64,000 bases of DNA, taken from positions 1 to 64,000 of the forward strand of contig NZ_JAIUFY010000011.1 in the NCBI RefSeq assembly GCF_020165855.1. The letters run 5' to 3'. The notes under the pieces are model-generated. The model was not told the DNA's origin, searched no databases, and was given only the letters and a program-made list of their open reading frames with translations. This DNA comes from Celeribacter litoreus (GTDB taxonomy: Bacteria > Pseudomonadota > Alphaproteobacteria > Rhodobacterales > Rhodobacteraceae). The position numbers were made by a program, and so were the translations under genes. Shown here in pieces: positions 6,614-32,850 of this stretch (positions within the stretch are counted from its first letter, which is position 1; each line of letters begins with the position of its first letter).

Positions 6614-6668
6614 CATAAAGCGTTTCCGCTAGATGATAATTAGGAATGCAAGGGGCAAAAGGCAGTCA

Positions 6669-8277: not shown

Positions 8278-8370
8278 CCACCGCATTTAGGGGGCTTGTG
8301 GATTACGAGTAAGATGGAGACGCGTGACACCGACTAGAGGTTAGGGAGATTTTTTAGGGGGGCTTAAGAC

Positions 8371-9506: not shown

Positions 9507-9521
9507 GGTGGAAGGTTGGCT

Positions 9522-11224: not shown

Positions 11225-11234
11225 GGGGAGAAAC

Positions 11235-16721: not shown

Positions 16722-16918
16722 CTTGTCATCCTTTACATTCAGCGAGTGCGTAGAGCGTTACGCGCCGGATCAGACGTCCATGAGGCGAAGGCATCAGGAG
16801 TGCACATTGAGAAGTATAACACGAAACGCTTGCTCCTTTTGGCCGCGGGTCATGTTGTTTTGTGCGTCCCTCTGCCGATCTCTTATGTGCCGGTTCCGAG
16901 GTGTTTGAATTTCTATTA

Positions 16919-16932
16919 CGGTAAGTTTCACG
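16919..16932 (+). promoter_or_regulatory. Putative regulon operator, copy 1
   Basis: CGGTAAGTTTCACG, one of five related 14-bp inverted repeats in the catabolic island. It is exactly 89 bp from copy 2 (start to start) and is followed by CAAAT, shared with copy 2. Confidence 0.55.
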
Positions 16933-17007
16933 CAAATGTTTGACGGGTCAAGGCTTTAGTGCGATAGTTAAACAAAGAAACGCAAATTCTCGACTGTCGG
17001 CGCGAAA

Positions 17008-17021
17008 CAGTAATATTACTG
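17008..17021 (+). promoter_or_regulatory. Putative regulon operator, copy 2 (perfect palindrome)
   Basis: CAGTAATATTACTG is a perfect 14-bp palindrome 81 bases before the iacI-like start codon. It fits the consensus of the other four sites and is the most symmetric of them. Confidence 0.65.
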
Positions 17022-17102
17022 CAAATCTTGGGGGCAAACTCACTCTGGGATGACGCAATTTTACGCGCAGATGGTTTGAGCCATTCAACAGGAAGAATGC
17101 AA

Positions 17103-17669
17103 ATGGCTGATGATTCACTGATCGAAACCCTGACCCGCCGCATTGAGAATCTGGAGGCCGCGAATGAGGTTCGCAACGTCCAGATGCGCTACATGTTTCT
17201 CTGCGACACGCCGCTGCCAGAATACGGCGTCAAAGACGACGCCGAGAGGATCGACTTGATCATGGAGCTTTTCGCAGAAGAAGCTGTCTGGGAAGGCGTT
17301 GGCGAGTACTACGACGGTCAGTTCGGACGGGCAGAAGGGAAAGCGGCCGTGCGCGCGCACTTCGAGAGTTTCTGGGGTGGCAAGCAGGACCCGGCGTTGA
17401 TCCTCAATTGCCATTACGTGACATCGGAACAAATCCATGTTGCTGAGGACGGTCAGACCGCGACTGGTCAATGGGTGCACATGCAGCCGTGGCTCTTCTC
17501 CGACGGCAAGGCGCTTCTGCGTTCTTCCCGCTTGTTTAATGCTTTCAAGAAGTGTGAGGACGGGAAATGGCGCTACACGCGGAACCGGACGGAAAATGTC
17601 TTCGTCGCGCCGCTGCCCGCGACATGGGCGTCTGACTACCCGTCGAAATCAGTGCTGATGAAGCCGTAA
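17103..17669 (+). CDS. iacI: IacI-like SnoaL/NTF2-fold protein
   Basis: A 188-residue protein of the SnoaL-like (NTF2) fold: an N-terminal helix (SLIETLTRRIENLEAANEVR), then a cone-shaped domain (MELFAEEAVWEGVGEYY, LNCHYVTSEQIHVAEDGQTA, GKWRYTRNRTENVFV). Such proteins act as small hydrolases, isomerases or cyclases. IacI of known auxin clusters is a SnoaL-type protein acting late in the pathway to catechol; I assign this gene from fold and context with moderate confidence. ATG 17103 was chosen because AGGAAG lies eight bases upstream. The gene is separate from the main iac operon but has the same putative operators upstream. Confidence 0.65.
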   Translation: MADDSLIETLTRRIENLEAANEVRNVQMRYMFLCDTPLPEYGVKDDAERIDLIMELFAEEAVWEGVGEYYDGQFGRAEGKAAVRAHFESFWGGKQDPALILNCHYVTSEQIHVAEDGQTATGQWVHMQPWLFSDGKALLRSSRLFNAFKKCEDGKWRYTRNRTENVFVAPLPATWASDYPSKSVLMKP

Positions 17670-17693
17670 TCAGAATCTGGAAGTTCGAAATGG

Positions 17694-17719
17694 AGAGGGC
17701 GCCGAATTCGGCGCCCTCT
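17694..17719. terminator. Bidirectional terminator, 26-base perfect palindrome
   Basis: AGAGGGCGCCG and CGGCGCCCTCT surround AATT, and T-rich sequence follows on the plus strand. It lies between the converging iacI-like and TRAP permease genes. Confidence 0.88.
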
Positions 17720-17740
17720 TTGCGTTTTGCGTAGATACCC

Positions 17741-19066
17741 TCACCAAAGTGCCAGCTGTGGGAACACAAGAGTCAGCACCAGAATGCCGATCTGCATTGC
17801 GACGAACGGCAGGACAGACCGGTAAATCTGCGTGATCTCCACGTCAGGCACTGCGTTCTTGAGATAGAACAGCGCCATGCCGACGGGCGGGGTCAGGAAC
17901 GATGTCTGCAGACAGATCGCGATTAGAATTGCCACCCACGCCGGATCATGTCCGAGCGCGGTAAGAACCGGAAGCACAAGCGGCGCAACGATCAGAATGA
18001 TCTCCATCCAGTCGAGGAAGAACCCGAGCAGGAACACGATGAACAAGATGAGAATGAGCGTGCCCGTGGGTGAGAGCGGAACAGCATGGAGCGCGCTGTC
18101 GATCAACTCGTCGCCACCGTAACCGCGCAGCACGACTGAGAAGCAACTTGCACCGAAGATCAATGCAAAGAGGAAAGCGGTCGTGATGCCCGTTTCTTCG
18201 CACACGTCTGTAAACGTCTTCCACGACAGGCGGCCCGAGCCGAGCGCAATGAGTGTCGCGCCGGCTGCGCCGATGCCCGAGGCTTCGGTCGGGGTCGCGA
18301 TGCCAAAAACAATTGAGCCGAGCACAGCAATTACGAGGAGGAGCGGGGCCACAAGAGACCCGAGAAGATCACGAGTGATTTCACCGAGGCTCCGCCCTTC
18401 TTCCAATGGCTTTGCGGGCGCCCGATCTGGATGGATGATCGCGTAGACGACCGAGTAGACGACGTAAGCAACAGCTAGGAGCAGGCCGGGAACCATCGCG
18501 CCGCGGAAGAGGTCGCCGACAGGGATTTGGAGCTGATCGCCCATCACGATGAGCATGATCGACGGCGGGATCAGGATGCCGAGACAGCCCGTCGCGCCAA
18601 TGACGCCGAGACCGAGACGATCATCATATCCCGCACTGCGCATCGCGGGCATGGCGATGGTCGCCAAGAGAACAACGGATGCGCCGATGATGCCGGTGGA
18701 CGCGGCGAGAACGACGCCAATCAGGACGACAGAAACCGCCATCCCGCCGGGCACGACACGAAGAACGCCGTGCATACGGGTGAGCAAGCGCTCTGCGACG
18801 CCAGACTTATCAAGCATCAACCCCATGAAGACGAACATCGAGATCGGAATGAGCGAGTAGCTTGAAAGCGTGTCGAAAATCCGGTTTGCGACGAACCCGA
18901 TCATCCGTAGGGACGCCATATCCGCATCGACAGAGAAGTAGTCGAGCATCGTGCCGAGCGCAGCAAAGGCGACAGCAACGCCGCCAAGGACGAACGCGAT
19001 CGGGAAGCCAGAGAACATCACCACCAGAAAGGTGGAGAAGAGCAAAAATACAAAAAGGACGTCCAT
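17741..19066 (-). CDS. dctM: TRAP transporter large permease (DctM), system 1
   Basis: A 441-residue inner-membrane protein with about 12 hydrophobic segments, the DctM/TRAP large subunit that moves the substrate using a sodium or proton gradient. Family features include GFPIAFVLGGVAVAF near the start, the conserved ILIPPSIMLIVMG stretch and FLTPPVGMALFYLKN near the end. It is the last gene of the first TRAP operon, three bases after dctQ. TRAP systems carry organic acids; an aromatic acid such as auxin would fit the neighbours, but the substrate cannot be read from the sequence. Confidence 0.93.
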   Translation of the reverse strand: MDVLFVFLLFSTFLVVMFSGFPIAFVLGGVAVAFAALGTMLDYFSVDADMASLRMIGFVANRIFDTLSSYSLIPISMFVFMGLMLDKSGVAERLLTRMHGVLRVVPGGMAVSVVLIGVVLAASTGIIGASVVLLATIAMPAMRSAGYDDRLGLGVIGATGCLGILIPPSIMLIVMGDQLQIPVGDLFRGAMVPGLLLAVAYVVYSVVYAIIHPDRAPAKPLEEGRSLGEITRDLLGSLVAPLLLVIAVLGSIVFGIATPTEASGIGAAGATLIALGSGRLSWKTFTDVCEETGITTAFLFALIFGASCFSVVLRGYGGDELIDSALHAVPLSPTGTLILILFIVFLLGFFLDWMEIILIVAPLVLPVLTALGHDPAWVAILIAICLQTSFLTPPVGMALFYLKNAVPDVEITQIYRSVLPFVAMQIGILVLTLVFPQLALW

Positions 19067-19069
19067 CTC

Positions 19070-19585
19070 TTATGACTCCTTGATCGTCTTTGGGCCAAAG
19101 AGGAAGAGGGCGGATTTCAGCAGGACGGCGATGCCTTGGAGGAACAAGAGACTCAGTCCGGCGGCCATCACAAACTTGATGAGGTAGCGGGCGGGAAGGC
19201 CGGAGGGCATGGGGGAGCCTTCCTTGAGTTTCCAGCTGTAGCCGAAAATCGTCCACGCGGAGTCGGCGACGAACCAGACGAACGGGAAGAGCAGGAAGAT
19301 CACGCCGAAGAGTTCGACGATGGCCTTTTGTGTTTCGGACATCTTTGCGTGGAACGCATCGACGCGGACGTGCGCGTTTTTTTGATAGGCCCATGCGAGG
19401 CAGGACATGACAGCAACGGCATTGAGGTGCCATTGCAGTTCCTCAAGCTGGATCGACCCGCGTCCGAGGACATAGCGGGAGAAGACGTTGACGAGGATGG
19501 TGAGCATCAGAAGCGGCAAAAACAGGGAGCCGACTTTGCCGATCCCCGCGATGAAACGCTCGATAAGTGTGATGATTGGCTGCAT
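19070..19585 (-). CDS. dctQ: TRAP transporter small permease (DctQ), system 1
   Basis: A 171-residue protein with four hydrophobic segments (about 15-35, 47-65, 88-108, 135-158), the DctQ architecture. It joins with DctM to form the membrane complex. Its gene sits 60 bases after dctP and three bases before dctM on the same strand. Confidence 0.9.
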   Translation of the reverse strand: MQPIITLIERFIAGIGKVGSLFLPLLMLTILVNVFSRYVLGRGSIQLEELQWHLNAVAVMSCLAWAYQKNAHVRVDAFHAKMSETQKAIVELFGVIFLLFPFVWFVADSAWTIFGYSWKLKEGSPMPSGLPARYLIKFVMAAGLSLLFLQGIAVLLKSALFLFGPKTIKES

Positions 19586-19645
19586 GTTTTCACCGAGTAG
19601 TGGCGCGCCGAGGCCGTGGCTCCGGCGCGCGATGGTGAGGAGCGC

Positions 19646-20671
19646 TTAGCGACGTTCTGCCCAAGCGGCGGTTTTCTCGCGGTAGGCGATCAGAGAGTCC
19701 CAAACGCGTTTGAAGGTCTCGTCTTCTGCGGTTTGTTCAGCAATCACTTCGTCGAAGGCTGCTTTGAGCGGCACGAGCACTTCTTCCGGGAAGGAACGGA
19801 TTTCGACGCCAGCGGCTTCGAACTCGGCAATCGCGTCGCTGTTGGCGGTCAGGGTCGACATGATGGAGGTGAGGTTCACCGCTTTACAGGTTTCCTCGAT
19901 CAGCGTCTGCTGGCTCTCTTCAAGGCTCTCCCATTTCGCCATGTTGATGATGAGTTCATTCATCGCTGCCGGCTGGTGCCAGCCCGGTAGGTAGTAATAT
20001 TTGCCAACATCCTGAAGGCCTAGGGTGATGTCGATGGCTGGCATGGAGAGCTCGGTGCCGTCGATGATGCCTTTTTCAAGGCCCGGATAGATCTCGCCGC
20101 CCGGCAGGAGGACGATGGAGGCGCCGACTTTCGCCATGGCTTCACCAGCGAGGCCAGCAAAACGGACTTTCTTGCCGTCGAGGTCTTCAACGGTGTTGAT
20201 TTCGAAGTTGTACCAACCGCCAGCTTCGGAATCCATCAGGCCACACGGAATGGTTTTGACGCCTTGCTCAGCGTAGATCTCGGACCAGATTTCAGCGCCG
20301 CCACCTTCGTAGAGCCAGCCGGTGTGCGTGATCGCATCCGGACCGAACGGAATGCCGCCGAAGAGTTGAACGGCAGGAAAACGGCCAGCCACGTAAAGCG
20401 GAGAAGTGATGCCTGCGTCGAGCGTGCCTTGCTGGACGGCGTCGAAGATTTGCAGAGACGGGACGAGTTTGCCTGCGCCGTAGACGGTGACATCGAGCTC
20501 GCCATCGGACGCGGCGGTGAGTTTTTCACCAAGGTAGGCCGCGTTCGCGCCGGAGGCGGGCATTGTGAGGGGCCATGCGCTCTGAATGTCGAGCTTTTCT
20601 TTTGCGATGGCCGGGGCGGCCGTGGTGGCGGCGATTGCCACCGCGACAAGGGACTTTTTAAGTGCAGTCAT
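19646..20671 (-). CDS. dctP: TRAP substrate-binding protein (DctP), system 1
   Basis: A 341-residue periplasmic receptor. The signal peptide (MTALKKSLVAVAIAATTAAP) ends near AIA, and the mature part starts KEKLDIQSAWP. The DctP fold is seen in TLDAGITSPLYVAGRFP, WYNFEINTVEDLDGKKVRFAG and GLEKGIIDGTELSMP, the last close to the conserved Arg/dimer region. ATG 20671 is preferred over upstream starts because GGAGACCCCC precedes it and the signal peptide begins there. It heads the first TRAP operon; copy 3 of the putative operator lies 160 bases upstream of its start. Confidence 0.92.
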   Translation of the reverse strand: MTALKKSLVAVAIAATTAAPAIAKEKLDIQSAWPLTMPASGANAAYLGEKLTAASDGELDVTVYGAGKLVPSLQIFDAVQQGTLDAGITSPLYVAGRFPAVQLFGGIPFGPDAITHTGWLYEGGGAEIWSEIYAEQGVKTIPCGLMDSEAGGWYNFEINTVEDLDGKKVRFAGLAGEAMAKVGASIVLLPGGEIYPGLEKGIIDGTELSMPAIDITLGLQDVGKYYYLPGWHQPAAMNELIINMAKWESLEESQQTLIEETCKAVNLTSIMSTLTANSDAIAEFEAAGVEIRSFPEEVLVPLKAAFDEVIAEQTAEDETFKRVWDSLIAYREKTAAWAERR

Positions 20672-21012
20672 TTGGGGGTCTCCTGTTGGTCTGCATTTAT
20701 AGTTGATCAGTTTCCGTTGCCGCCTACAGGTCACACGAATGGGTCTGGCGCCCGTGTGAAGGGGCATCAGCTATCCGTCATTCGGGACAGATCGGAACGC
20801 GGCGCGGTTATTTTTATGGGTGCGTAATTGCGTTAACTTTACCGTTATTGGCCTTAGTGAACACCAAAAACAAAAACGTAATCAAGTAAAAATAAGATGA
20901 AAAATCATCTAATGAGGCTTTTTTGTGCAGAAGGCTTTTCTCTATCTTTTGGTTGGGCCTTCCTTAGGCAGAACGAAGTCACGAAAGCCCCAAAAGGCGC
21001 TTGAAACGCGTG
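20672..21012. promoter_or_regulatory. 341-bp region between the two TRAP operons
   Basis: It holds the promoter side of the first TRAP operon and the end of the second. It contains the operator-like palindrome at 20831 and an A/T-rich stretch (about 20865-20915). A weak stem with an A/T loop near 20984-21002 could end the second operon. No gene is supported here. Confidence 0.5.
20831..20844 (-). promoter_or_regulatory. Putative regulon operator, copy 3
   Basis: On the minus strand this reads CGGTAAAGTTAACG, matching the consensus and followed by CAATTA. It is 160 bases upstream of the dctP start. No second copy 89 bp away was found here, unlike the paired sites. Confidence 0.6.
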
Positions 21013-22038
21013 CTAGCCCCGCGCGTAGACGGTCATATTGGCGAGTCTCTCGATGGCTGCGGGCACATCGGAAACGGGCAGCCGCGCGGCGGTTTCGACA
21101 TCTGCGATCAGCCGGGCAAGCAGGGGCATGTCGCCGCCATCGCGTCGCGCCAGTTCGAGCGGAGCACGGCAAATGGCATCGAGTTCGAGCGCTCGCCCCG
21201 CGAGAGCGTCTTGCAACATCGATGTCGGGAAGTCACCGGCTTCAATGAAGAGATCGACGAGCCACTCGTTCGAGGGCAGGTCATACCCGTTGTCTTTCGC
21301 CCAGCTTCTGAACTCATCGGCCAGTTCAGTCGCGATCTCGCGCAGCATCTCGGTTTGTCCGACCGCTTCAAGGGTCGCACCGGTGAGCGCCGTCAGAGGG
21401 TTGGTGGTGAGATTGGCAAGAAGTTTGACGAGCACCTTTTGACGGATGTCGTCGCTCAGATCTGTCCGAACGCCGCCTGCCTCTAACGTGGCGACGAGGC
21501 GTTCGATCTTCTCTGCATGTGCGCCCGTTGCCACGGTGCCGATGCTGAGCGTCGGTGTGTTCGACGAAATCGCCTGACCGCTTTCGTCCATACGCACCGT
21601 CATGAGAAGCACAGCCCCGAGGATCTGTGATGGGCGCAGAAGTTTTGCCAAATCCCCCTTCGGGTCGAGATAGGGGATTTGGCCCATCTCGTTTTCAGTC
21701 GCAAAAAACCAAAAAGGCATTCCGTTGACCATCGGGATGATGAGAGTCTCCGGACCAATCGCTTCTGCATTGCTGAGGAGGGCTGTCGGCAGACTCTGGC
21801 TCTTCACACAGACGAAGACCGCATCCATTGTTTCCGGAAGAACTTCGGATGCAAACGGATGTACCTCAATGACGTCGCCGCGATCATTGAGGCGAATGCC
21901 GTCGTCCGACACCGCGCGAAGGCGTTCGTTACGTGCTGTGAGGAAAACCTCGGCGCCTGACCGCGACAGCAGTGCTGCCATCGCGGTGCCGATATTTCCT
22001 GCGCCAATGACGCCGATTTTGAGCGATGTGCCGGTCAT
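21013..22038 (-). CDS. Ketopantoate reductase (PanE/ApbA) family oxidoreductase
   Basis: A 341-residue NAD(P)-dependent 2-oxoacid reductase of the PanE/ApbA family. The Rossmann motif GVIGAGNIGTAMAAL is at about 9-23, a second conserved piece AVFVCVKSQSLPTAL at about 74-88 and PMVNGMPFW at about 103-111. The C-terminal helical domain carries KLLANLTTNPLTALTG, with the family Lys and Asn. It lies nine bases after dctM2, so it is co-transcribed with a transporter and is probably a catabolic reductase rather than the pantothenate enzyme. The substrate is unknown. Confidence 0.85.
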   Translation of the reverse strand: MTGTSLKIGVIGAGNIGTAMAALLSRSGAEVFLTARNERLRAVSDDGIRLNDRGDVIEVHPFASEVLPETMDAVFVCVKSQSLPTALLSNAEAIGPETLIIPMVNGMPFWFFATENEMGQIPYLDPKGDLAKLLRPSQILGAVLLMTVRMDESGQAISSNTPTLSIGTVATGAHAEKIERLVATLEAGGVRTDLSDDIRQKVLVKLLANLTTNPLTALTGATLEAVGQTEMLREIATELADEFRSWAKDNGYDLPSNEWLVDLFIEAGDFPTSMLQDALAGRALELDAICRAPLELARRDGGDMPLLARLIADVETAARLPVSDVPAAIERLANMTVYARG

Positions 22039-22047
22039 GTCTTTTCC

Positions 22048-23328
22048 TCAGGTCAGCAGAAGTACGAGTGACGGAACCATGGTGAGCAGGCCAACGCGCA
22101 CAACATCCATCACAACGAACGGGCCGAGGCCTTTGAAGATCGTGCCGAGCCGCACATCAGGGACCACCGAGCGCAGAACGAAGGCGTTCATGCCGACCGG
22201 CGGCGTGATGTAGGAAATCTCTGTGACCATCACGACGAAGATGCCGAACCAGATCAGGTCGACGCCCATGGAAGCCGCGATCGGGTAGAACACCGGAACC
22301 GTGAGCATGATCATCGACAGGCTTTCCAACACACAGCCAAGAACGAGATAGATGCAGAGCACCACGAGGATAAAGCTGATGCGGCTATCCCCGAACATGG
22401 TCAGGAAGCTTTGGATGTCGCGGGTCATGCCGGACATGTTGACGTAGTTCGTGAACGTCAGTGCGCCGAAGAGGATGAAGAACATCATGGCCGTGGTTTT
22501 CATCGTATCGTAGAGCACGATCAACATCGAGTTCAGCGAGAACTTGCCCTGCAGAACGACGAGCAGGAGTGCACCACCTGCGCCCATGCCCGCGCTTTCC
22601 GTCGGGGTGAAGACGCCGAGGTAGATGCCACCCATCACGAAAGCGAACAGGGCGAGTGCGCCAGCCGTCCCTTTGAGTGCACGGATACGGTCCATGAGCG
22701 GGAGTTTCTCTTCGACGGGCAGGTCGATGTTTTGGAACTTAAGAGAGATTTTGACGGCAATCATGTAGCCAATTATGCCGATAATGCCGGGAATGATCCC
22801 CGCGAGGAAGAGCTTGCCGATGTCCTGCTGGGTCATGATGCCGTAGAACACGAGGATTACGGACGGCGGGATCAGAATGCCGAGCGTGCCGCCTGCTGCA
22901 ATCGACGCGGTCGAAAGCTGGTCAGGGTAGCCGAAGCGGCGCATGGAGGGCAGGGCGATCCGTGTCATCGTTGCGGCGGTCGCCATCGAAGAGCCGGACA
23001 CAGACGAGAACGCGCCACAGGCAATGACCGTCGCGGTCGCGAGGCCACCTTTGCGGTGACGGAGCCACGCGTAGGCAGATGTGTAAAGGTCCTGCGCGAT
23101 GCCGGATTGCACCACGAAATTTCCCATCATGAGGAAGAGCGGCAGAACGGACAGGGAATAGTCTCGGCCGTTGTCAAAGAACGCCGACCCCATCAGGGAC
23201 AAAGCCGGATTCCAGCCGATGATGGAGGCAACGCCGACGAGACCGACGCCGGCAAGTGCGAAAGAGATCGGCACACCCAAGAGCAACAGGACGCTCAGGA
23301 TGGCCATACCAACGGGCCAATGTTCCAT
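22048..23328 (-). CDS. dctM: TRAP transporter large permease (DctM), system 2
   Basis: A 426-residue permease of the DctM family with about 12 hydrophobic segments. It carries GVPISFALAGVGLVG near the start, LGILIPPSVILVFYGIMTQQ in the first half and SYITPPVGMNAFVLRSVVP near the end. ATG 23328 is preferred because AAAGGA stands nine bases upstream; the longer frame runs back into dctQ. The gene order dctP-dctQ-dctM-panE is continuous on the minus strand. Confidence 0.92.
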   Translation of the reverse strand: MEHWPVGMAILSVLLLLGVPISFALAGVGLVGVASIIGWNPALSLMGSAFFDNGRDYSLSVLPLFLMMGNFVVQSGIAQDLYTSAYAWLRHRKGGLATATVIACGAFSSVSGSSMATAATMTRIALPSMRRFGYPDQLSTASIAAGGTLGILIPPSVILVFYGIMTQQDIGKLFLAGIIPGIIGIIGYMIAVKISLKFQNIDLPVEEKLPLMDRIRALKGTAGALALFAFVMGGIYLGVFTPTESAGMGAGGALLLVVLQGKFSLNSMLIVLYDTMKTTAMMFFILFGALTFTNYVNMSGMTRDIQSFLTMFGDSRISFILVVLCIYLVLGCVLESLSMIMLTVPVFYPIAASMGVDLIWFGIFVVMVTEISYITPPVGMNAFVLRSVVPDVRLGTIFKGLGPFVVMDVVRVGLLTMVPSLVLLLT

Positions 23329-23342
23329 GGGAAATCCTTTCC

Positions 23343-23882
23343 TCAGGCCATGAGGCGTAGATAAAGGCGCTTCATCGGGAGAAACGCAGTGATGATGGCG
23401 CCAATCGCCGCGCATATCGCGCAGAAATAGCCGAGCGGAGCAATCGGGATGGCGAGGTTCGTCGTGGAGCCGCCGTAGCTACCGATCTGTGCTGCATAGA
23501 CCCAGAGCCGCCAGCTAACGAGCGCAAGTACCACGCCGCTGAACAGACCGCTGAGCGCGATGCGCCACGGCTGAATGAAGGCGGGAAGGCGATCAGTCAC
23601 GAGATCGACCGTCACATGTTCTTCGCGTAGAGATACCGCGCCGAGGCCGAGAAAGATCGTCGCGGCCAACAGAAGCTCCGTCAATTCCGCGGCCCCCTTG
23701 ATCGGGGAGTTGAAGACGTAGCGACCGATGACGTCGAACACAGTCAGAGCCATCATGACGGTGAGCATGATGCCCCCGACCGCCGCGAGCGCGACGCCCA
23801 CGGGGCCGAGCAACTGGCTCGGAGGCAGCTGCTTGCGCGCTGCCTCCTGTTGCTTTTCATCCATCAGCACAGGCTGCTTCAT
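23343..23882 (-). CDS. dctQ: TRAP transporter small permease (DctQ), system 2
   Basis: A 179-residue DctQ protein with a hydrophilic N-terminal arm of about 25 residues and four hydrophobic segments (about 28-52, 68-84, 108-128, 143-165). It includes FDVIGRYVFNSPIKGAAELT, the usual DctQ signature around the first two helices. The start overlaps the dctP2 stop by four bases. Confidence 0.9.
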   Translation of the reverse strand: MKQPVLMDEKQQEAARKQLPPSQLLGPVGVALAAVGGIMLTVMMALTVFDVIGRYVFNSPIKGAAELTELLLAATIFLGLGAVSLREEHVTVDLVTDRLPAFIQPWRIALSGLFSGVVLALVSWRLWVYAAQIGSYGGSTTNLAIPIAPLGYFCAICAAIGAIITAFLPMKRLYLRLMA

Positions 23883-24904: not shown

Positions 24905-25047
24905 TTTCATATTCCCCGTTGGGTCAGGTTGATGGTATTGGACTGTTGAAAGTTCTGTTGTTGTGAAGGAGGTTATTTTCATGTTTTTGATTTTCCTTCA
25001 TTTTTTGAGTATCCCCCAAGCTGCAGGGATGCGGAGAGGAGAGAGGA

Positions 25048-25518
25048 ATGACTCAAAATCCTACGGATGACACGAAAGAAAACCCGAGCCATTTCCGTGA
25101 AACGTGGCCCTACTTTTGGATCAATAGGGCCAATTCGTTCTATACGCGTGCGCTGGAAAAGCGGTTGAAACCCATGGGCGTCGATGCGCCGCGCTGGCGG
25201 GTTCTGATCACGCTTTACCAACAGGATTACATGTCGGTGTCCGAGATTGCGGAATTTTCCACCGTCAAACTCAACACCGCGACAAAGATCGTCCAGCGCA
25301 TGATCGCCGAAGGCCTGGTCAAAACCCGCGTCCGTCCGACCGATGGTCGGGTGACGGAGGTGTGTCTGACCGAACAGGGCGATGCCTTGCGTGCGAAGGC
25401 GCTCGTAGAGGTGAGCCGCATTCGTGACGAAAGCTTCTACAACATTTCGCCCGCCGAGCTTGAGACACTCAACGGCATCCTGCGAAAGGTCAGCGCCGAT
25501 CTTGCAAAGATGATTTGA
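25048..25518 (+). CDS. iacR: MarR-family regulator, IacR-like
   Basis: A 156-residue winged-helix repressor. The dimer helix is N-terminal, and the DNA-binding part is at about 60-105 (MSVSEIAEFSTVKLNTATKI, then MIAEGLVKTRVRPTDGRVTE with the wing Arg and Asp of MarR proteins). In known auxin clusters, a MarR protein (IacR) represses the iac genes and releases them when indole-3-acetic acid binds. Its place between the TRAP operon and the iac operon supports that reading. GGAGAGGAGAGAGG lies just before the ATG. It converges closely on iacG with a 17-base gap and no terminator. Confidence 0.82.
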   Translation: MTQNPTDDTKENPSHFRETWPYFWINRANSFYTRALEKRLKPMGVDAPRWRVLITLYQQDYMSVSEIAEFSTVKLNTATKIVQRMIAEGLVKTRVRPTDGRVTEVCLTEQGDALRAKALVEVSRIRDESFYNISPAELETLNGILRKVSADLAKMI

Positions 25519-25535
25519 GTGTCCCAACACGATCA

Positions 25536-26039
25536 TCATGCACGCTCCGTGACGAGGTGGTGATAGTCGCGGCTGAACCAAACGAGGCCGTGCCGTGCTT
25601 CCGATGCGAGGCGCACGGCCTCGACCTGACAGAAGAAGACAGAGTGGGTGCCTTCTTCCTGACGGCCGGTGATCCGGCAATCAAAGGCGACGTTTGCATC
25701 GGTCAGGAGGGGAGAGCCGGTCTTTTCCGTCACCCATTTCCCGTAAGAAAACCGGTCGACGCCTTCGACGTAGCGGGCGAATTTGCTGGAGAGTTCCTGA
25801 TGCTCTGCCGCAAGCACGTTGACCGCGAGCACGCCGTTCTCGATGAATTTGTCGTGCACAAAGGCGTTCTTGTTGATGCAAACCAAGAGCGTCGGTGGAT
25901 GGTCTGTGACGGAACACACCGCAGACGCAACGAGACCGTGTCTGCCAGCAGGGCCGTCAGAGGTGATCAGGTTGACCGCCGCACCGAGGCGGCTCATGCC
26001 TTCGCGGAAATCGAGTTGGGTCTGCGAGAGCTCTGGCAT
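25536..26039 (-). CDS. iacG: Flavin reductase, IacG-like
   Basis: A 167-residue flavin reductase of the HpaC/FMN-binding split-barrel family (FREGMSRLGAAVNLITSD at the start, GLVASAVCSVTDHPPTLLVC, and the C-terminal HGLVWFSRDYHHL). It should make reduced flavin from NAD(P)H for a two-component monooxygenase, here most likely the IacA-like protein. ATG 26039 has GGAG nine bases upstream. It is the last gene of the iac operon, following iacF directly. Confidence 0.85.
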   Translation of the reverse strand: MPELSQTQLDFREGMSRLGAAVNLITSDGPAGRHGLVASAVCSVTDHPPTLLVCINKNAFVHDKFIENGVLAVNVLAAEHQELSSKFARYVEGVDRFSYGKWVTEKTGSPLLTDANVAFDCRITGRQEEGTHSVFFCQVEAVRLASEARHGLVWFSRDYHHLVTERA

Positions 26040-26042
26040 CAC

Positions 26043-27008
26043 TCAAATCTCCAATACGAGTTTCGGACCCTTGGCCCGCGAACAGCAAGCGCAAATGACG
26101 TCGCCGTCTTCACGTTCCTCTTCGGTGAGGAACTGATCACGGTGATCAATCTCGCCTTCGAGAACGTCGGTGAGACAGGTGCCGCAAACGCCTTCTTCGC
26201 ATTTCACTTCGATTTTGATGCCCTCACGGGCGAGTGCCTTTGCGATGGTATCATCGGGGCCGACCGTAATGGTCACGCCGCTCTCGGAGCATTCTACCTC
26301 AAAACTGTCACCGGACAGTTCGACATCGGCAGAGAAATATTCGCGGTGTACATTGGCTGTTGCGTGACCTGCGCCCTCGGCACTGTCGATCACCCAGTCC
26401 ATGAAGCCTTGCGGGCCGCAGACATAGAGATGCGTCGAAGCGGACGGGGCGGGCAGGTCGCGTTTCAGGTCGAGCTTTTGCCCGGCATCCTGATCGTCAA
26501 AGTGGAAGAAGACTTTGTCTGCAAACCCGCAACCCTTCAGGTCATCGAGAAACGCGGTCACGTCCTCGGAACGGGTGCAATAGTGCAGTGTGAAATCTTT
26601 GCCGATGGCGTGCAGGCGTTTGGCCATGGCGATCATCGGCGTGATGCCGATGCCACCGCCGAGCAGGACAGTCGTTTCTGCCGTCTCGTCGAGCGGAAAG
26701 TGATTGCGCGGGCCTTCGATGGTAAAGACAGCGCCCTCAACGGCGGTTTCATGAACCTTCACAGAGCCACCGCGGCTGTTCGGGTCTTTCAGGACGCCGA
26801 TCTCGTAGTAACCGGTTTCCGCAGGATCCGAGCAGAGCGAATACTGACGCCACATGTCGAGATCAGGCAGGTAAATGTCGAGGTGTGCGCCAGCCTCATA
26901 GGCGATGATGTCACCGCCATCTTGAGGGGCAAAGCGAATGCGGGAGATATCTCCACGGTCGTCGATGCGGGCGATGACCTTGAGCTTTTGTGCGATTTCT
27001 TTGGTCAT
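26043..27008 (-). CDS. iacF: Ferredoxin reductase with C-terminal 2Fe-2S domain, IacF-like
   Basis: A 321-residue electron-transfer protein of the phthalate dioxygenase reductase/VanB type. The flavin site is at WRQYSLCSDP, the NAD site at GGGIGITPMIAMAKR, and the C-terminal plant-type 2Fe-2S domain has the Cys set CEEGVCGTC and, later, CACCS. It should pass electrons from NADH to the Rieske oxygenase coded upstream (IacC/IacD). ATG 27008 is favoured over a longer frame that starts inside the SDR gene. Order SDR, reductase, flavin reductase matches known iacE-F-G. Confidence 0.9.
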   Translation of the reverse strand: MTKEIAQKLKVIARIDDRGDISRIRFAPQDGGDIIAYEAGAHLDIYLPDLDMWRQYSLCSDPAETGYYEIGVLKDPNSRGGSVKVHETAVEGAVFTIEGPRNHFPLDETAETTVLLGGGIGITPMIAMAKRLHAIGKDFTLHYCTRSEDVTAFLDDLKGCGFADKVFFHFDDQDAGQKLDLKRDLPAPSASTHLYVCGPQGFMDWVIDSAEGAGHATANVHREYFSADVELSGDSFEVECSESGVTITVGPDDTIAKALAREGIKIEVKCEEGVCGTCLTDVLEGEIDHRDQFLTEEEREDGDVICACCSRAKGPKLVLEI

Positions 27009-27013
27009 TGTCT

Positions 27014-27775
27014 TTACCTTACGTAGAGCCCGCCGTTGACGTCCCAGCATGCGCCGGTGACGAAGGCGGCCTCGGGGCTTGCCAGCATCACCACCATATT
27101 GGCGACGAAGTCGGGATCGCCGAGCTGGCCAACCGGAATATTCTTGAGAAAGCCTTCAATCTTGTCGCCGACAATGTCGCGAACCATCGGGCTATCCATC
27201 GGGCCGGGGGAAATGGCGTTGCAGGTGATCCCGTATGCTGCCAGATCACGCGCGAAGACCTTGGTCAAGGTCAGGATCGCGCCTTTCGACGCGGCATAAT
27301 GCGCACCCGTCGCAGTGCCTCCATTTTGACCAGCCAGAGACGCCATGTTCACGATGCGACCATAGCCGCGCTCTTTGAAATGACGGGCAAAAATCTGACA
27401 GCCTGCAAAAGTACCGCCAGCGTTCGTCGCCATGATTTCGTTGAACACCGCAGGGTCAATGTCCATGACGGGTTGCGCCATGGTGCGGGCCGCGTTGTTC
27501 ACCAGCACCTCGACCGATCCGTACCGGTCGATGCATTTGTCGAGAACTTCTTGGAAGTTTTCCGGTTTAGAAATGTCCAATGTAGCCGTGATCGCCGTTT
27601 CGCCAGCCAGATCGAGTTCGGAGGCCAGGGCCTTGGCCTCCTCTCCCGGATTCAGGTCGGCAATGATGACGCGGTAGCCTGCCTTGTGCAGAGCGCGAAC
27701 GATCGAGGCACCGACGCCGCGCGCGCCACCGGTCACCACGGCCGTCTGGATTTTTTCAGGGAGAGGAGCAGTCAT
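27014..27775 (-). CDS. iacE: Short-chain dehydrogenase, IacE-like
   Basis: A 253-residue classical SDR. It has the cofactor motif VTGGARGVGASIVRAL (14-29), NNAART for the NNAG position, catalytic Ser in NMASLAGQN and YAASKGA with the Tyr-Lys pair, and a PGPMDSPMV loop. In auxin clusters IacE acts with IacA in forming dioxindole-3-acetic acid (known pathway, not provable here). The start codon is adjacent to the stop of the dioxygenase beta subunit (TAATG), so they are translationally coupled. Confidence 0.9.
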   Translation of the reverse strand: MTAPLPEKIQTAVVTGGARGVGASIVRALHKAGYRVIIADLNPGEEAKALASELDLAGETAITATLDISKPENFQEVLDKCIDRYGSVEVLVNNAARTMAQPVMDIDPAVFNEIMATNAGGTFAGCQIFARHFKERGYGRIVNMASLAGQNGGTATGAHYAASKGAILTLTKVFARDLAAYGITCNAISPGPMDSPMVRDIVGDKIEGFLKNIPVGQLGDPDFVANMVVMLASPEAAFVTGACWDVNGGLYVR

Positions 27776-28269
27776 TAGAACAAATAGCTGAAGGAGTTCA
27801 GCATCCCGTCAGAGTTGAGAAGGCGGACGATCTTTTGCTCGATCTTGAAGCCGTCTTCGGTTTTTACGAGCGTGTAGTAGGCGTTGCCGGCCCACACGCG
27901 CTGGCGTCCGAATTTGTCCTCGATGAGGTGTTCGGCGCAGGACGCCTTGACGATATCACCCTCGACAGAGTCGATACGAATGCGGGACAGGGTCCGAACC
28001 GTCTGCGCGGGCGGCGCAGACGAGATGGAGAAGCCGCGCTCGAAACGTCCGATGCGGTCGCGGCGCATCTTTGCGTTGTCGTAGCAGAGGTTCACCTGGT
28101 TCTTGTAATCCTCGCCGTCGCCGATCGGCATGATGTAGAGGCCGGTCTCGGTCCACAGGTCTAGCCAGTCGCTGTATTCCTTGGCGTCGAGCATGGCGCC
28201 CTCGGTCCAGATGAATTCAGTGACTTCGGACAGAACGCTGGTCGTGCTGATTTTGCTCATCTCGGTCAT
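27775..28269 (-). CDS. iacD: Aromatic-ring-hydroxylating dioxygenase beta subunit, IacD-like
   Basis: A 164-residue beta subunit with the NTF2-like fold of ring-hydroxylating oxygenases (FIWTEGAMLDAKEYSDWLDL, LYIMPIGDGEDYKNQVNLCY, and a C-terminal EQKIVRLLNSDGML). It gives structure to the oxygenase and holds no metal site. ATG 28269 overlaps the alpha subunit stop in ATGA, so the two subunits are made together. Confidence 0.9.
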   Translation of the reverse strand: MTEMSKISTTSVLSEVTEFIWTEGAMLDAKEYSDWLDLWTETGLYIMPIGDGEDYKNQVNLCYDNAKMRRDRIGRFERGFSISSAPPAQTVRTLSRIRIDSVEGDIVKASCAEHLIEDKFGRQRVWAGNAYYTLVKTEDGFKIEQKIVRLLNSDGMLNSFSYLF

Positions 28270-29543
28270 TTGCCCATCATCCCTTTCCACATTTTGTAAG
28301 CGGCGCGCATGCCGGTCTCGGCGGAGATGTGGCCACGCGGACCGAACTCACCCTGCTCTTCATCGACCATGCCGCGGTTGACGAGGATCGGGAGCGTTTC
28401 GCCACCTTTGGTTCCGCGCTGAACGCGTTCCCAAACTTCTGCGTCATCCGGAGAGCCGAAGCCCATCGGCCCCTGGAAGTGCTCGTGCAGGCGGATACGT
28501 GCCTGGTTCGCAGCATCCGGACCACCGTCCATGCCGATGGCGATGTGACGGATGTCGGTCTGCTCTACGTTCATCGGGGTCAGAACGCGGAAGAAGGCGA
28601 GAGAGAAGGACACGTTCGGGAAGAGGTTCAGGTTGAAACCAGCGCCGCTCACCGCGCGGACGATCTTTTTGACCTGATCTTCCGGATAGCCTTCGTCGCG
28701 CAGTTCTTGAGCCAGCTCTTCGAAACGTTCCGGGATCGGCGCGTCGAGGTTTTCGTCGAGGTCAACAAGTTCCGGGATCATGGTCATCACGGAGTGGCCG
28801 TTGCCGAGGTCTTCGACATAGCCGACGCCTTTGTCGAGGAAGTCGAAGAGTTCACCGGTCTCGCCATCGAGCGTCTGCATGAAGCTCTTGTGCACGATCG
28901 GGAAGTGGTATGCATCGGTCGTGTTTTCGAGCTGCACTTTCCAGTTCATCGGCACGGAGAACTGGTGCTCGCCGAGCACTTTGACCGGGAAGCCGCCGCC
29001 CTGTTTCATGAACAGGTCGATGTATTTGCGAACGCCTTCGCCGAGGAAGTCTTCGAGCGGCTCCATGTCTTCTTTGAAGGTCGCGAACACCATGCCGTTG
29101 TAAGACTCGGTGCGGAGCTTCAGGAGGCCGTGCTGCGACTTGTCGAAGTCGTCGCCGTATTGTTCAGGGTAGGGCAGTGCGCGGAGCGATCCGTCGAGGC
29201 CGTAGCCCCAGCCGTGATACGGGCACTGGAAGGAAGAGGTCTTGCCCTTCTTCACTTCGCAAACAGTCGCGGCACGGTGGCGGCAGCGGTTGACCATGCA
29301 GTGGATCTTGCCCTTGCGGTCGCGGACAACGATCACCGGCTCAAGGCCCACCTGAGACAGTTTGAAAGAGCCTTTGTCGGGGAATTCGCTTTCGTGCGCG
29401 ACCCAGACCCAGGTGTTTTTGAAGATCTTTTCCATCTCTTCGTCGAAGAGGGCAGGATCTTCATACATTTCGGTGGCAACCAGCGCGTTCTCTTCGTCGT
29501 AGAGCGCGTCGAGATCGCTGAATTTCGGCATATCCAAAGACAT
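28266..29543 (-). CDS. iacC: Rieske oxygenase alpha subunit, IacC-like
   Basis: A 425-residue catalytic subunit. The Rieske 2Fe-2S ligands are Cys87-x-His89 and Cys107-x2-His110 (NRCRHRA and CPYHGWGY). The mononuclear iron site follows in ENTTDAYHFPIVH and a distal Asp late in the protein. With its beta subunit and an IacF-type reductase it should dihydroxylate the aromatic ring. In auxin clusters IacC/D attack dioxindole-3-acetic acid. TAGGAG precedes ATG 29543. All metal ligands are intact. Confidence 0.92.
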   Translation of the reverse strand: MSLDMPKFSDLDALYDEENALVATEMYEDPALFDEEMEKIFKNTWVWVAHESEFPDKGSFKLSQVGLEPVIVVRDRKGKIHCMVNRCRHRAATVCEVKKGKTSSFQCPYHGWGYGLDGSLRALPYPEQYGDDFDKSQHGLLKLRTESYNGMVFATFKEDMEPLEDFLGEGVRKYIDLFMKQGGGFPVKVLGEHQFSVPMNWKVQLENTTDAYHFPIVHKSFMQTLDGETGELFDFLDKGVGYVEDLGNGHSVMTMIPELVDLDENLDAPIPERFEELAQELRDEGYPEDQVKKIVRAVSGAGFNLNLFPNVSFSLAFFRVLTPMNVEQTDIRHIAIGMDGGPDAANQARIRLHEHFQGPMGFGSPDDAEVWERVQRGTKGGETLPILVNRGMVDEEQGEFGPRGHISAETGMRAAYKMWKGMMGK

Positions 29544-29557
29544 GTCAGCTCCTATTT

Positions 29558-29920
29558 TTAAAGTTGCGGGATCTCGAGCGCGCGTCCCATACGCGCCTCG
29601 ACGGTCATGTATTTCCAAAGGCGGTCATTGCCTTCACCGACGACGATGGTACGGAGCAGGTTGCAGGCTGCCTGCACGTCTTCGCGGGTCGGGAAATCGG
29701 CCATGATGTACCAAGTGTAGGGGAAGCCGACGGATGCGCCGACGAAGGTTTGGTCATCGTCAAACGTGCCGACGATTTCGACGCCGTCCATCTGGTCGAT
29801 CTTGGCCATCAGTTCCTGCGTCGCTTTCCAGACCGGACCGATCTGGTCGAACGGGAGGCTGAAAAAGGCCGCGTGGTTGTTGAAGCATAGCAGTGTGCGG
29901 ATCGGTTGTTGTTCACTCAT
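29558..29920 (-). CDS. iacB: IacB-like small protein of unknown function
   Basis: A 120-residue protein without a signal peptide or membrane segment. The pattern is a compact alpha/beta ferredoxin-like fold of the kind seen in small dimeric enzymes (RTLLCFNNHAAFFSLP, GVEIVGTFDDDQTFVGASVG, YIMADFPTREDVQAACNLLR). I recognise no catalytic motif. Its place between the IacA-like monooxygenase and the Rieske alpha gene equals that of iacB in known clusters, whose role is not established. The gene is tightly spaced with iacC (14 bases). Confidence 0.75.
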   Translation of the reverse strand: MSEQQPIRTLLCFNNHAAFFSLPFDQIGPVWKATQELMAKIDQMDGVEIVGTFDDDQTFVGASVGFPYTWYIMADFPTREDVQAACNLLRTIVVGEGNDRLWKYMTVEARMGRALEIPQL

Positions 29921-29965
29921 GTGTCTGGTCCTCTGTCGGGGAATTCTTGAATTTTGTGGGTGCGA

Positions 29966-31117
29966 TTATGGGTAGCCGGGCATGGTCGGTTGATCGAAGA
30001 ACCCTGCACCTGCGGCGGTCCATGTGCCTTCGCCCATGAAGGCGTGCTGTGCGACGCAGGCTGCGTCGATCATGCAGCGGCCAAGCGTATGGCCGGTTTC
30101 CATGACGCCGGAGCCGCCGATAACAAAGGCGATGCGCGCTGCTTCTGCGCCGTCACGCGCGGCTTTGGTGGCCACGAGGCGGAGGCGGATTTTCATGTCT
30201 GGCGACACTTCACCTTTGGTCTTCAGTTCGTCCCATGCGGCTTCAATCGTGTCGTAAAAGGCTGCGCGGGCGCCCATCAGAAGTCCCTGTGCTTTGGCGA
30301 ATTCAGCCTGCACATAGGGGCGTGCGCCAGGGTTCGGAGCGCCGGTGATGGAGGCGCGCTGGCGTGCGTCGTTTACAAGGAAGTCGAGAGCTTCGCGTGC
30401 GGCTCCGAGGGCGACAACTGCAAGCACCTGTGCGGCAAGTGCCATGGCAGGGAAGCGGAAGATGAGGTCGTCCATTTCCGGTTTGCCGCCGCGGATGAAG
30501 GTCCACTCGGGGGCGACGACCACATCTTCGACAACCGCGTCGTGAGAGCCGGTCGCGGAGAGGCCGATGGTGTCCCATGTTTCGTCGACGGTGACTTTAT
30601 CGCGGGGCATGATGGCGACGCGCGGAAGGGGGGTGTCGTCGCCTTCAACTTTGATGCCGGCGCCCACAAGAGAAGCCCCCATGATGCCGGAGCACCACGG
30701 CCAGCGACCTTTGACTTTGAAGCCACCGTCGACCTTCTCCGCTTTCTGCGGTGGGAACATCGCACCAGCGAAGACAGTGTTCGGATCTTTGCCGTAAATA
30801 GCCGCGTAGGTTTCTGGCGGAAGGGCGGCGAGGTAGGTGGCAGACACGCCGAAGGAGGCGACCCAGCCAGTGGAGGCGTCGGCGGCGGCAATGTCTTCGA
30901 TGAGGCGGCAGAAGTCAGCAGGGCTCAGTTCGTCGCCACCGAAACGCGCAGGCACAAACGCGCGGTAAGCGCCGATGTCCTGAAGCTTTTTTACCATATC
31001 CATCGGCACATGGCGCAGGGCCGTGAACTCTGCGCGGCGGGCGCGGATTTCGTCGAGCACCGTGCAGTAGTTTGTTTCGTCGGCCTGATCAAAGGCCAGT
31101 TTTGAAATGTAGGTCAT
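29966..31117 (-). CDS. iacA: Flavin-dependent monooxygenase of acyl-CoA dehydrogenase fold, IacA-like
   Basis: A 383-residue protein with the acyl-CoA dehydrogenase fold used by group D flavin monooxygenases (HpaB/HsaA relatives): AYRAFVPARFGGDELSPADF, then ADASTGWVASFGVSATYLA, FKVKGRWPWCSGIMGA, and a helical C-terminal half. In auxin clusters IacA carries out the first oxidation of indole-3-acetic acid, with reduced flavin from IacG. A true acyl-CoA dehydrogenase is less likely given the partner flavin reductase. ATG 31117 overlaps the amidase stop in ATGA. Confidence 0.85.
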   Translation of the reverse strand: MTYISKLAFDQADETNYCTVLDEIRARRAEFTALRHVPMDMVKKLQDIGAYRAFVPARFGGDELSPADFCRLIEDIAAADASTGWVASFGVSATYLAALPPETYAAIYGKDPNTVFAGAMFPPQKAEKVDGGFKVKGRWPWCSGIMGASLVGAGIKVEGDDTPLPRVAIMPRDKVTVDETWDTIGLSATGSHDAVVEDVVVAPEWTFIRGGKPEMDDLIFRFPAMALAAQVLAVVALGAAREALDFLVNDARQRASITGAPNPGARPYVQAEFAKAQGLLMGARAAFYDTIEAAWDELKTKGEVSPDMKIRLRLVATKAARDGAEAARIAFVIGGSGVMETGHTLGRCMIDAACVAQHAFMGEGTWTAAGAGFFDQPTMPGYP

Positions 31118-32277
31118 TGGGTGTGGTCCTTTGACTGAAACAAGGGGATGCAGGACGAAATCCAGCTCGCGATCGCGCAAAGCTTTTCGTCCTCGCCTTT
31201 CCGTCCGATGATCTGCAACCCGATGGGCAGACCGGCATTCGAACGTGTCGGCAGAGTGATGGCGGGATGCCCGGACAGGTTGAACGGGCGTTGATAGCGC
31301 GTGAGGGACAAGACGTTCTGCGGGTCTTTGGCGTCCTCAAGGGTCGGCGGAACTGTCGGTAGAGAAGGGGTGACGAGTGCGTCATAGCCTTCGAGCAGGG
31401 CGTCAACCTCAGCGGTGAAGCGCTCTCTAATGGCCTCGGCCTCTGCCAGTTGTACGTCGGTGATCTTTTGCGCGGCTGCGAGCCGTTTTGCGATGTCCGG
31501 ACCGAACGGCGCGCCCTGATCGAGCATGTCGCCAAAGGCTTTCGCCATCTCGTAGGACATGACGACCATGCCTGCGTCGAACGCGGCATCAAAAGACGGC
31601 AACGTCTCATAGGGCATATCCGGATAGGCATCCATCAGCGCGAACACCAAAGGATCACCGACCTCGAGATCGACACCCTCCGATTTGATGCGACGCAGAC
31701 GTGGCGCGTGGACAAGGCTCTCGCGTTTGAAGGTCGGATCAATCGCCTCCATCGCAGTGTTCAACATGTTCATGTCACGGGCAAAGGCGCCCACGCAGTC
31801 GAGAGAGCTCTCGCTCGGGATGAGGCCTTCGCGGCTGATCCGGCCAAACGTCGGTTTGATGCCGATAATGCCGCAGCATGTCGCGGGCTGGCGGATTGAG
31901 CCGCCGGTGTCTGTGCCAACCGCGAAGTCGCAGAGGCCTGATGCAACGGCAACCGCCGAGCCGGAAGAAGAGCCGCCGGGAATGCGGTCGGGCCAGTTCG
32001 GATTGATCGGCGTGCCGGTAAAGCCGTTCACGCCCGTCATGCCAAAGGCGAGCTCATGCATGTTGGCTTTGCCGATGATCCGGCAGCCCGTAGCGAGAAG
32101 ATTGTCGACGACGACCGCGTTTTTTTCAGCGGGCGCAGTGCTGGCGAAGGCTTCCGACCCGCAGCCGGTGACAAAGCCTGCAATGTCGATGCAGTCCTTG
32201 ATCGCGACGGTTGGTCCGGTCTCTCCAATAGAGAGCGACGCAACCAGCGTCGTATCGCTGGGTGTGTGAGCGTTCAT
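31114..32277 (-). CDS. iacH: Amidase, IacH-like
   Basis: A 387-residue amidase-signature hydrolase. The triad is visible: Lys in VAIKDCIDIAG, the cis-Ser in GGSSSGSAVAVA and the nucleophilic Ser in GTDTGGSIRQPA. In auxin clusters IacH is an amidase acting late, in line with hydrolysis of the opened lactam. ATG 32277 is chosen because upstream codons run through a poor AT-rich leader. It is the first gene of the iac operon; operator-like copies 4 and 5 lie 45 and 134 bases upstream. Confidence 0.88.
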   Translation of the reverse strand: MNAHTPSDTTLVASLSIGETGPTVAIKDCIDIAGFVTGCGSEAFASTAPAEKNAVVVDNLLATGCRIIGKANMHELAFGMTGVNGFTGTPINPNWPDRIPGGSSSGSAVAVASGLCDFAVGTDTGGSIRQPATCCGIIGIKPTFGRISREGLIPSESSLDCVGAFARDMNMLNTAMEAIDPTFKRESLVHAPRLRRIKSEGVDLEVGDPLVFALMDAYPDMPYETLPSFDAAFDAGMVVMSYEMAKAFGDMLDQGAPFGPDIAKRLAAAQKITDVQLAEAEAIRERFTAEVDALLEGYDALVTPSLPTVPPTLEDAKDPQNVLSLTRYQRPFNLSGHPAITLPTRSNAGLPIGLQIIGRKGEDEKLCAIASWISSCIPLFQSKDHTQ

Positions 32278-32321
32278 CGTTTTAGTCCTGTTGGAACTGT
32301 GCAGTTGTGTTTTTCTATTTA

Positions 32322-32335
32322 CAGTAAAATTCACG
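32322..32335 (+). promoter_or_regulatory. Putative regulon operator, copy 4
   Basis: CAGTAAAATTCACG, 45 bases upstream of the iacH start codon, so placed to block the promoter. It is exactly 89 bp from copy 5, the same spacing as copies 1 and 2. Confidence 0.55.
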
Positions 32336-32410
32336 TAATAAATCGCCACGTCAAGAAAAATATAAATCAACAATATCGAATTAATTCTGGAGGGCGGAAT
32401 GTCGCAATTG

Positions 32411-32424
32411 CGGTAAGATTATCG
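32411..32424 (+). promoter_or_regulatory. Putative regulon operator, copy 5
   Basis: CGGTAAGATTATCG, flanked by TTG and CATTAA, so the near-palindrome extends beyond 14 bases (GCGGTAA/TTATCGC with one mismatch). It is the distal member of the pair before iacH. Confidence 0.6.
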
Positions 32425-32850
32425 CATTAAATCAGCGCAGCCGTCGAAAAATCGTGCTCAATAATTGCGCGATCCGTGTTTTGAGGCTTGCAGTAAACCG
32501 TGTTTTATTGAGCCCTCCAGGCGTACTCTGACCGTTGCTTCAGGCCTTTTTCGCGTTGTTTCGACTCATCAGTGGAACGTCTGGCTCGCGCGCCGATTCC
32601 CCCTGCTGGGGGGGATTTCTCTGCTTTGTCCCCTCGGTGTCGGGGGAGGAGACGCTCCTTAGCACATCGGGCGGCAGAGAGAGTGTCGCCTGCGAAGCAA
32701 ACTCGAGTGTAAGCACGAAAAAATGTTAGCGCTCCCTTTCTCTCGGGGAAGGTTTCGCGCTATGCATATCGCGGTGGGCGTTCGAGGGAGTGGAGCGCTT
32801 GTGAAGGCGCTGGCTCTCTGCGGACAGCTCAGCGCAGGGAGGAACATTCA

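Follow-up and report, generated by a model that had tools for sequence, protein, structure and literature searches.

Within a 64,000-nucleotide stretch of Celeribacter litoreus DNA (contig NZ_JAIUFY010000011.1 of assembly GCF_020165855.1; hereafter the window), an iac-type cluster for the catabolism of indole-3-acetic acid (IAA) spans approximately 15948-32277, and five matching palindromes occupy three intergenic regions of this island. Which protein reads these palindromes, and why are two pairs of them, one at each end of the cluster, spaced by exactly 89 bp? The palindromic box is best read as a putative operator of the MarR-family repressor IacR (25048-25518). The window probably holds two copies of one ancestral divergent amidase/iacI promoter, from which the 89 bp would be inherited. 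We consider it quite likely that the five boxes are IacR operators under IAA-released repression and that the 89 bp come from the duplicated promoter; IacR binding, repression, IAA release and promoter duplication are the parts that we infer.

The first-pass annotation had placed five 14-bp palindromes at 16919, 17008, 20831 (minus strand), 32322 and 32411. All five are present at these starts, and both pairs start 89 bp apart. The guess of a longer palindrome of about 20 bp was also right. The full box is about 20 bp long, contains 23.2 bits in all and has the consensus TTACGGTAATATTACCGTAA. In the window, the 14-mer CRGTAANNTTMNYG gave 6 rows compared with 0.11 expected (100 shuffles, none with 6 or more). 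These rows correspond to 5 places, because the palindrome at 17008 is perfect and matches both strands. With 1 mismatch, 12 rows were found and 3.49 were expected. A 20-bp matrix whose training set included four of the five sites, but not 20828, scored the five sites at 20.2-27.2 and the next best position in the window at 2.8. The lowest of the five was box B2 (Table 1), with 20.2 in this first matrix and 18.0 in a second scoring.

We also scanned the organism's own genome (3,655,420 bases, 3.66 Mb). The loose 14-mer gave 12 rows, or 11 places, of which 5 lie in the island. The reversed-pattern control gave 17 rows, and the 14-mer is not enriched outside the island, where its six places scored from -6.6 to 9.8 with the matrix. 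Near-consensus matches, as detected with the 20-mer TTRCRKKAANNTTMMYGYAA, concentrate in the island: this 20-mer, which was composed with the sites in view, has 7 places with up to 2 mismatches, and 5 of the 7 are within the island. At up to 3 mismatches the signal is absent (45 places vs 37 in the control). The boxes are thus restricted to the island, and they define a local regulon over three intergenic regions, as had been proposed. A wider regulon in the own genome was considered and rejected, since only two places outside the island, C9:167445 (matrix 18.4) and C8:298788 (7.9), lie within 2 mismatches of the 20-mer. The better of these (L093 3446-3465) is about 200 bp before a 119-amino-acid open reading frame on the minus strand without a Pfam match.

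A transfer matrix was made from the five window sites alone and run on 38 other iac-type loci, with the 400 bp upstream of the amidase gene (or iacA) as the test region. Of 28 loci whose IacR match had at least 40% identity, 27 reached an upstream score of 16 or higher. In four loci the MarR match was weaker (27-37%), and the scores were 12.6, 12.5, 10.6 and 0.1. Six loci without an IacR match in the stretch examined scored 9.8, 6.0, 0.5, -1.3, -4.0 and -5.6, all below 10; two of them (G760 and G1054) show few iac genes, and one (G946) has its best locus match upstream, but this match is weak (9.8). The upstream region held the whole-locus best match in 25 of the 38 loci; 200 column-permuted matrices averaged 3.0 such loci and reached at most 22 of the 38. 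In G361, G052, L014 and L018 a better match lies elsewhere and is probably another box of the same kind. Not included in the 38 loci were L019 and L021 (MarR relatives with no iac genes in 20 kb) and G226, whose contig starts inside iacA; L061-L065 were used for the dctP1 comparison only. The box recurs together with IacR across these loci.

Among plasmid records, where 10 of 26 matches were examined and L100 does not reach the amidase region, the best match was upstream in 5 of 6 iac clusters. Three plasmid controls with a MarR gene and no iac cluster (L099, L101 and L102) had best scores of 8.5, 10.7 and 11.4. L102, an Acinetobacter baumannii plasmid, carries an IacR-like MarR gene (35%) beside aldolase and ApbA-like genes, without iac enzymes in 24 kb. 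In the gammaproteobacterial and Novosphingobium clusters, a related palindrome resembling CTTGAA-NN-TTCAAG stands before the amidase gene; it was seen in G823, G1081, G925, Klebsiella variicola and Novosphingobium EMRT-2.

When compared with solved structures, the window MarR protein is closest to 7KUA (2.9e-25), 7L19 (3.6e-21) and 7L1I (3.1e-19), which are the IacR-type MarR proteins of IAA loci from P. putida, E. soli and A. baumannii (PMC11630574). Weaker matches were IadR-group 7KFO (9.5e-07) and 3CDH (2e-10). The closest characterised relatives are thus IacR proteins. Residues Y32, W50 and R51 are invariant in an alignment of seven relatives, as is much of residues 74-86, taken as the recognition helix. 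Judged by alignment and numbering, these three residues, as candidate IAA contacts, would correspond to Tyr44 of P. putida and Trp45/Arg46 of MarR_73, named in PMC9613470. IacR acts as a repressor in E. soli (PMC9613470), P. putida IacR has been employed as an IAA-released repressor (PMC11753152), and IAA releases IadR from DNA (PMC9613470, section 7). No regulator other than MarR was found among the genes annotated at 15948-32277. The earlier suggestion of one dimeric regulator, with the MarR/IacR-like protein as the candidate, is strengthened by its being the sole regulator found in the cluster, by the closeness to IacR structures and by the way in which the box tracks IacR over the loci.

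Of 25 amidase-facing sites, 17 have a TTGAC that ends 10-11 bp upstream of the box, 2 more have TTGAT at 11 bp, and 6 have neither. A bound dimer would exclude RNA polymerase, because the usual 17-bp spacer from TTGAC places the -10 hexamer (by eye) in the middle of the box. The aldolase-facing boxes of the window and of Salipiger both have TTGAC at 11 bp; box A1 lies about 195 bp from the start of the aldolase gene in the window, compared with 41 bp for the Salipiger box. On the iacI side of the Rhizobium group, the box end runs into TTGAC (by eye); no clear -35/-10 pair was seen for window iacI.

We propose that in the absence of IAA an IacR dimer would occupy each 20-bp box and block RNA polymerase, the box centre being at the expected -10 element at the amidase-iac operon and at the aldolase-facing copy. 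IAA would bind IacR, IacR would leave the DNA, and expression would follow for the iac operon, iacI and TRAP operon 1, and probably for the aldolase gene. The equal 89 bp would be no device. They would come from an ancestral divergent promoter with one box per direction, present as two copies in the rearranged cluster. Autoregulation of iacR in the window was considered and rejected with the matrix scan, which found no box before iacR; the best score before this gene or before the second TRAP operon is -0.1, in agreement with the annotation.

To what extent is the 89-bp spacing explained by such a promoter? Of the 28 loci with IacR at 40% or more, 19 have amidase and iacI side by side and transcribed divergently, and these divergent loci mostly carry one box per promoter. 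In all 18 tabulated loci the nearest box is 22-90 bp away from the amidase start; for iacI the corresponding distance is 91-131 bp in 17 of the 18 and 25 bp in G127. Distances were taken to the first box base, and gene starts were assigned by homology. From box to box, the distance is 89, 89, 90 and 90 bp in four Celeribacter loci and 91 bp in G127. The gene order of the cluster is altered in the window and in Salipiger abyssi, where each end has a region with two boxes, A followed by B in both cases. Rearrangement is also seen in SZUA-611 and Marivivens, which carry part of the set. The four Celeribacter loci have the same box types, order and spacing (88-91 bp) as the two copies in Salipiger and the two in the window (88-90 bp in the window and Salipiger). 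Similarity to the window's amidase-side spacer was found in C. persicus and in C. baekdonensis (p 0.002 for each) and not in HF31 (p 0.25). In the sequence past box B, C. persicus L012 is similar to the amidase-side copy of Salipiger (p 0.002). The box B left beside the amidase gene in rearranged clusters is weaker or lost: four such copies scored 18.0, 15.0, 17.0 and -11.1, and each of the seven boxes that remain at their own gene scored higher (19.6-27.7); the sets are small, hand-picked and related.

Several results weigh against our explanation. The two window copies show no overall similarity in their spacers (p 0.15), and neither do the Salipiger copies (p 0.21). The iacI-side spacers resemble none of the other regions tested (all p > 0.1), so that the evidence for the iacI-side copies consists of box type, order, spacing and TTGAC. 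Beyond box B, the HF31 and C. baekdonensis regions (L013 and L015) are unlike the Salipiger amidase-side copy (p 0.64-0.65), and the window copy resembles no Celeribacter region (p 0.09 at best). The aldolase-facing A copies score 24.1 in the window and 16.8 in Salipiger, and box A1 thus shows no weakening. The enzyme tree gives no single origin of the rearranged order: simple groupings of the rearranged clusters were opposed by the approximately unbiased (AU) test with p-AU 0.023 (window, Salipiger and SZUA-611) and 0.007, in a test that took 19 of 37 rows and whose groups were named after the full 37-row result had been seen. As for the regulator, G042 is the exception among the 28 loci, with IacR at 41% and an upstream score of 7.1, and G1048 has a MarR match of 37% and a score of 0.1. 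The absence of IacR means absence from the stretch examined, and the loci are mutually related and are not independent trials. The scores of the gammaproteobacterial and Novosphingobium clusters (9-13) overlap those of the non-iac control loci (8.5-11.4, three loci); because of this overlap, the claim for these clusters rests on position and palindromic symmetry.

Some of these results fit a separate origin of the two pairs, with the equal spacing as a coincidence, namely the dissimilar window spacers and the rearranged clusters that are not grouped by the enzyme tree. However, box types and order are the same, both A copies have TTGAC at 11 bp, and 88-91 bp is also found in the undivided Celeribacter promoters. 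Of the alternatives this one survives best, and it is nevertheless unlikely. It is also unlikely that a different, co-inherited regulator binds the boxes instead of IacR. No box stands before window iacR, and LysR or AraC regulators are nearby in some relatives, but no regulator besides IacR was found in the window cluster, and the presence of the box follows IacR over the 38 loci.

The annotation had further proposed two sites per promoter, with looping or a fixed layout. Such joint binding, in which IacR would hold both boxes of a pair by looping or cooperatively and selection would keep the 89 bp, could account for the recurrence of 88-91 bp in Celeribacter, Salipiger, G127, Sagittula (91 bp) and both window pairs. 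Between lineages, however, the spacing ranges from 42 to 320 bp. It is 42 bp in G1065, 182 or 294 bp in Shinella, 231 bp in Pararhodobacter (with a middle box at 165), 258-318 bp in the Rhizobium group, Thioclava and G361, 301 bp in Martelella and 320 bp in Azospirillum lipoferum, and four loci (G134, G052, G260 and G203) have one single shared box. In addition, 89 bp is about 8.5 turns of 10.5 bp and not a whole number, and the amidase-side B copies decay. Looping with a fixed spacing was rejected on account of this variation, and joint binding as a whole seems quite improbable. What stood of the proposal is the one regulator and the local regulon over three intergenic regions; two sites per promoter did not, since one box per promoter is usual. 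The 89-bp spacing is better explained by common descent than by looping. That chance or a bias of AT-rich intergenic DNA made the boxes, as the unenriched loose 14-mer outside the island could suggest (6 places; 17 rows for the reversed control in the genome), is hardly credible against 6 rows for 0.11 expected in the window and a window-only matrix that transfers to other genera when permuted matrices do not.

The reach of the putative IacR regulon differs between lineages. The box before TRAP operon 1 has a strong counterpart in C. persicus (23.9) and Salipiger (17.4) and a weaker one in G239 (12.7) and SZUA-611 (6.8); with the matrix scan it is missing in two C. baekdonensis genomes and in G1065. 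TRAP operon 2 has no box in the window. Among 17 loci scanned, it has one in G134, G052, G203, G127 and G260. In G361 (L059 7665), the perfect palindrome TTACAGTAATATTACTGTAA lies between a LysR gene and Dabb, iron alcohol dehydrogenase-family and intradiol dioxygenase genes. In Sagittula, one weaker box (14.3) precedes an operon with maleylacetate reductase and intradiol dioxygenase genes, and a second (13.2) stands immediately upstream of the MarR gene. Control of ring cleavage by IacR in some lineages is suggested by these boxes, though not proven. At L025 19973, a box with one mismatch separates an aldehyde dehydrogenase gene from a LysR gene; L024 has a similar one at 20073.

Taken jointly, these data could be read as one 20-bp IacR operator scaffold (TTAC...GTAA) across Alpha- and Gammaproteobacteria, with half-sites CRGTAA/CGTGAA in most alpha loci seen and CTTGAA-like half-sites in the gamma and Novosphingobium loci, placed around the -10 element at the iac operon. 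A complete divergent promoter would have been duplicated when the cluster was rearranged, and the class II aldolase gene would have taken over its amidase-facing half; other lineages would have extended the regulon to TRAP transporters and ring-cleavage genes. For this broader reading we see the balance as even.

The features of the window are collected in Table 1. Homologues of iacA-G and iacI occur together with iacR, with Pfam domains in order, and the same set is found in relatives. The Pfam domains of the catabolic operon are amidase, acyl-CoA dehydrogenase-like, Rieske oxygenase alpha and beta, SDR, ferredoxin-type reductase and flavin reductase; the iacB-like protein (120 amino acids) has no Pfam match, and none of the iac genes reached an NCBIfam equivalog cut-off in the NCBIfam scan of the window. 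We assigned the iac gene letters on the assumption that domains and order identify them, and we take the SnoaL-fold gene to be iacI from its domain and context. The plus-strand iacR gene is flanked by the flavin reductase gene and TRAP operon 2, and the aldolase gene now stands leftward of boxes A1 and B1. The start of DctP1 was set at 20662.

Table 1. Boxes, possible promoter elements and genes of the iac-type cluster in the window.
Feature	Position	Strand	Basis or remark
Box A1, leftward, aldolase-facing	16916..16935	no strand	Matrix; 20 bases identical to box A of Celeribacter persicus L012
Box B1, iacI-facing	17005..17024	no strand	About 98 bp before iacI start
Box before TRAP operon 1	20828..20847	no strand	Matrix score 23.3
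Box A2, amidase-facing	32319..32338	no strand	Matrix
Box B2, probably left-over copy of iacI-side box	32408..32427	no strand	Weakest of the five
TTGAC, possible -35 element of leftward promoter at A1	16947..16951	-	11 bp before box A1
TTGAC, possible -35 element of amidase-iac promoter	32350..32354	-	Sequence spacing to box A2
Class II aldolase/adducin family gene	15948..16721	-	Pfam PF00596, NCBIfam PRK07044 above cut-off
iacI-like SnoaL-fold gene	17103..17669	+	Pfam PF13577
TRAP transporter operon 1 (DctM1, DctQ1, DctP1)	17741..20662	-	Pfam
ApbA-like reductase gene and TRAP transporter operon 2, without box	21013..24982	-	Pfam, matrix scan
iacR, MarR-family regulator, 156 amino acids, proposed protein bound to boxes	25048..25518	+	Homology to IacR structures
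Catabolic operon (amidase, iacA, B, C, D, E, F, G; amidase first)	25536..32277	-	Pfam

The cluster contains two TRAP transporters (17741-20662 and 22048-24982) with different binding proteins. DctP1 is closest to 2HZK/7UG8 (sorbitol/mannitol and ketoacid names), and DctP2 is closest to 4P56 and also matches 4PGN. Directly left of the island, 5528-12638 of the window holds Flp/Tad pilus genes (CpaB, secretin, TadA-type ATPase). G260, of the same genus as the window (L055-L056), has an iac cluster with another gene order that branches apart from the window cluster, a pattern that suggests horizontal transfer or replacement.

Repression of iac genes by IacR is already known (PMC9613470, PMC11753152), and the mechanism is ordinary. 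Our result is a well-supported putative operator for a known kind of regulator. In the literature searched, with subscription papers, figures and supplements mostly outside it, we found no IacR operator sequence, which may be in print elsewhere. A concrete candidate operator for the auxin-responsive IacR would make iac regulons, their transporters and downstream enzymes readable from sequence. It could be used in work on marine or plant-associated bacteria that degrade auxin, and in IAA biosensors. The locus also illustrates that an eye-catching equal spacing can be a by-product of a change in gene order.

Compared with the IacR loci of P. putida 1290, Enterobacter soli LF7 and Acinetobacter baumannii, the window likewise has a MarR gene beside the same catabolic genes; the differences are another cluster order and a putative regulon that extends to a TRAP operon and probably the aldolase gene. 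IadR (MarR_73) of Variovorax paradoxus CL14 is similar in being a MarR dimer that binds IAA and a DNA site before a degradation operon and is released by IAA (PMC9613470). However, it belongs to another MarR group and another operon type (iad), and its site is given as a 24-bp oligo (PMC9613470). In Marinomonas sp. NFXS50, the available text of PMC11373566, in which no operator analysis was seen for the iac clusters, describes iacR beside class II aldolase and 2-dehydropantoate 2-reductase genes, like the aldolase and ApbA-like genes of the window, whereas ABC transporter genes are listed instead of the TRAP genes of the window.

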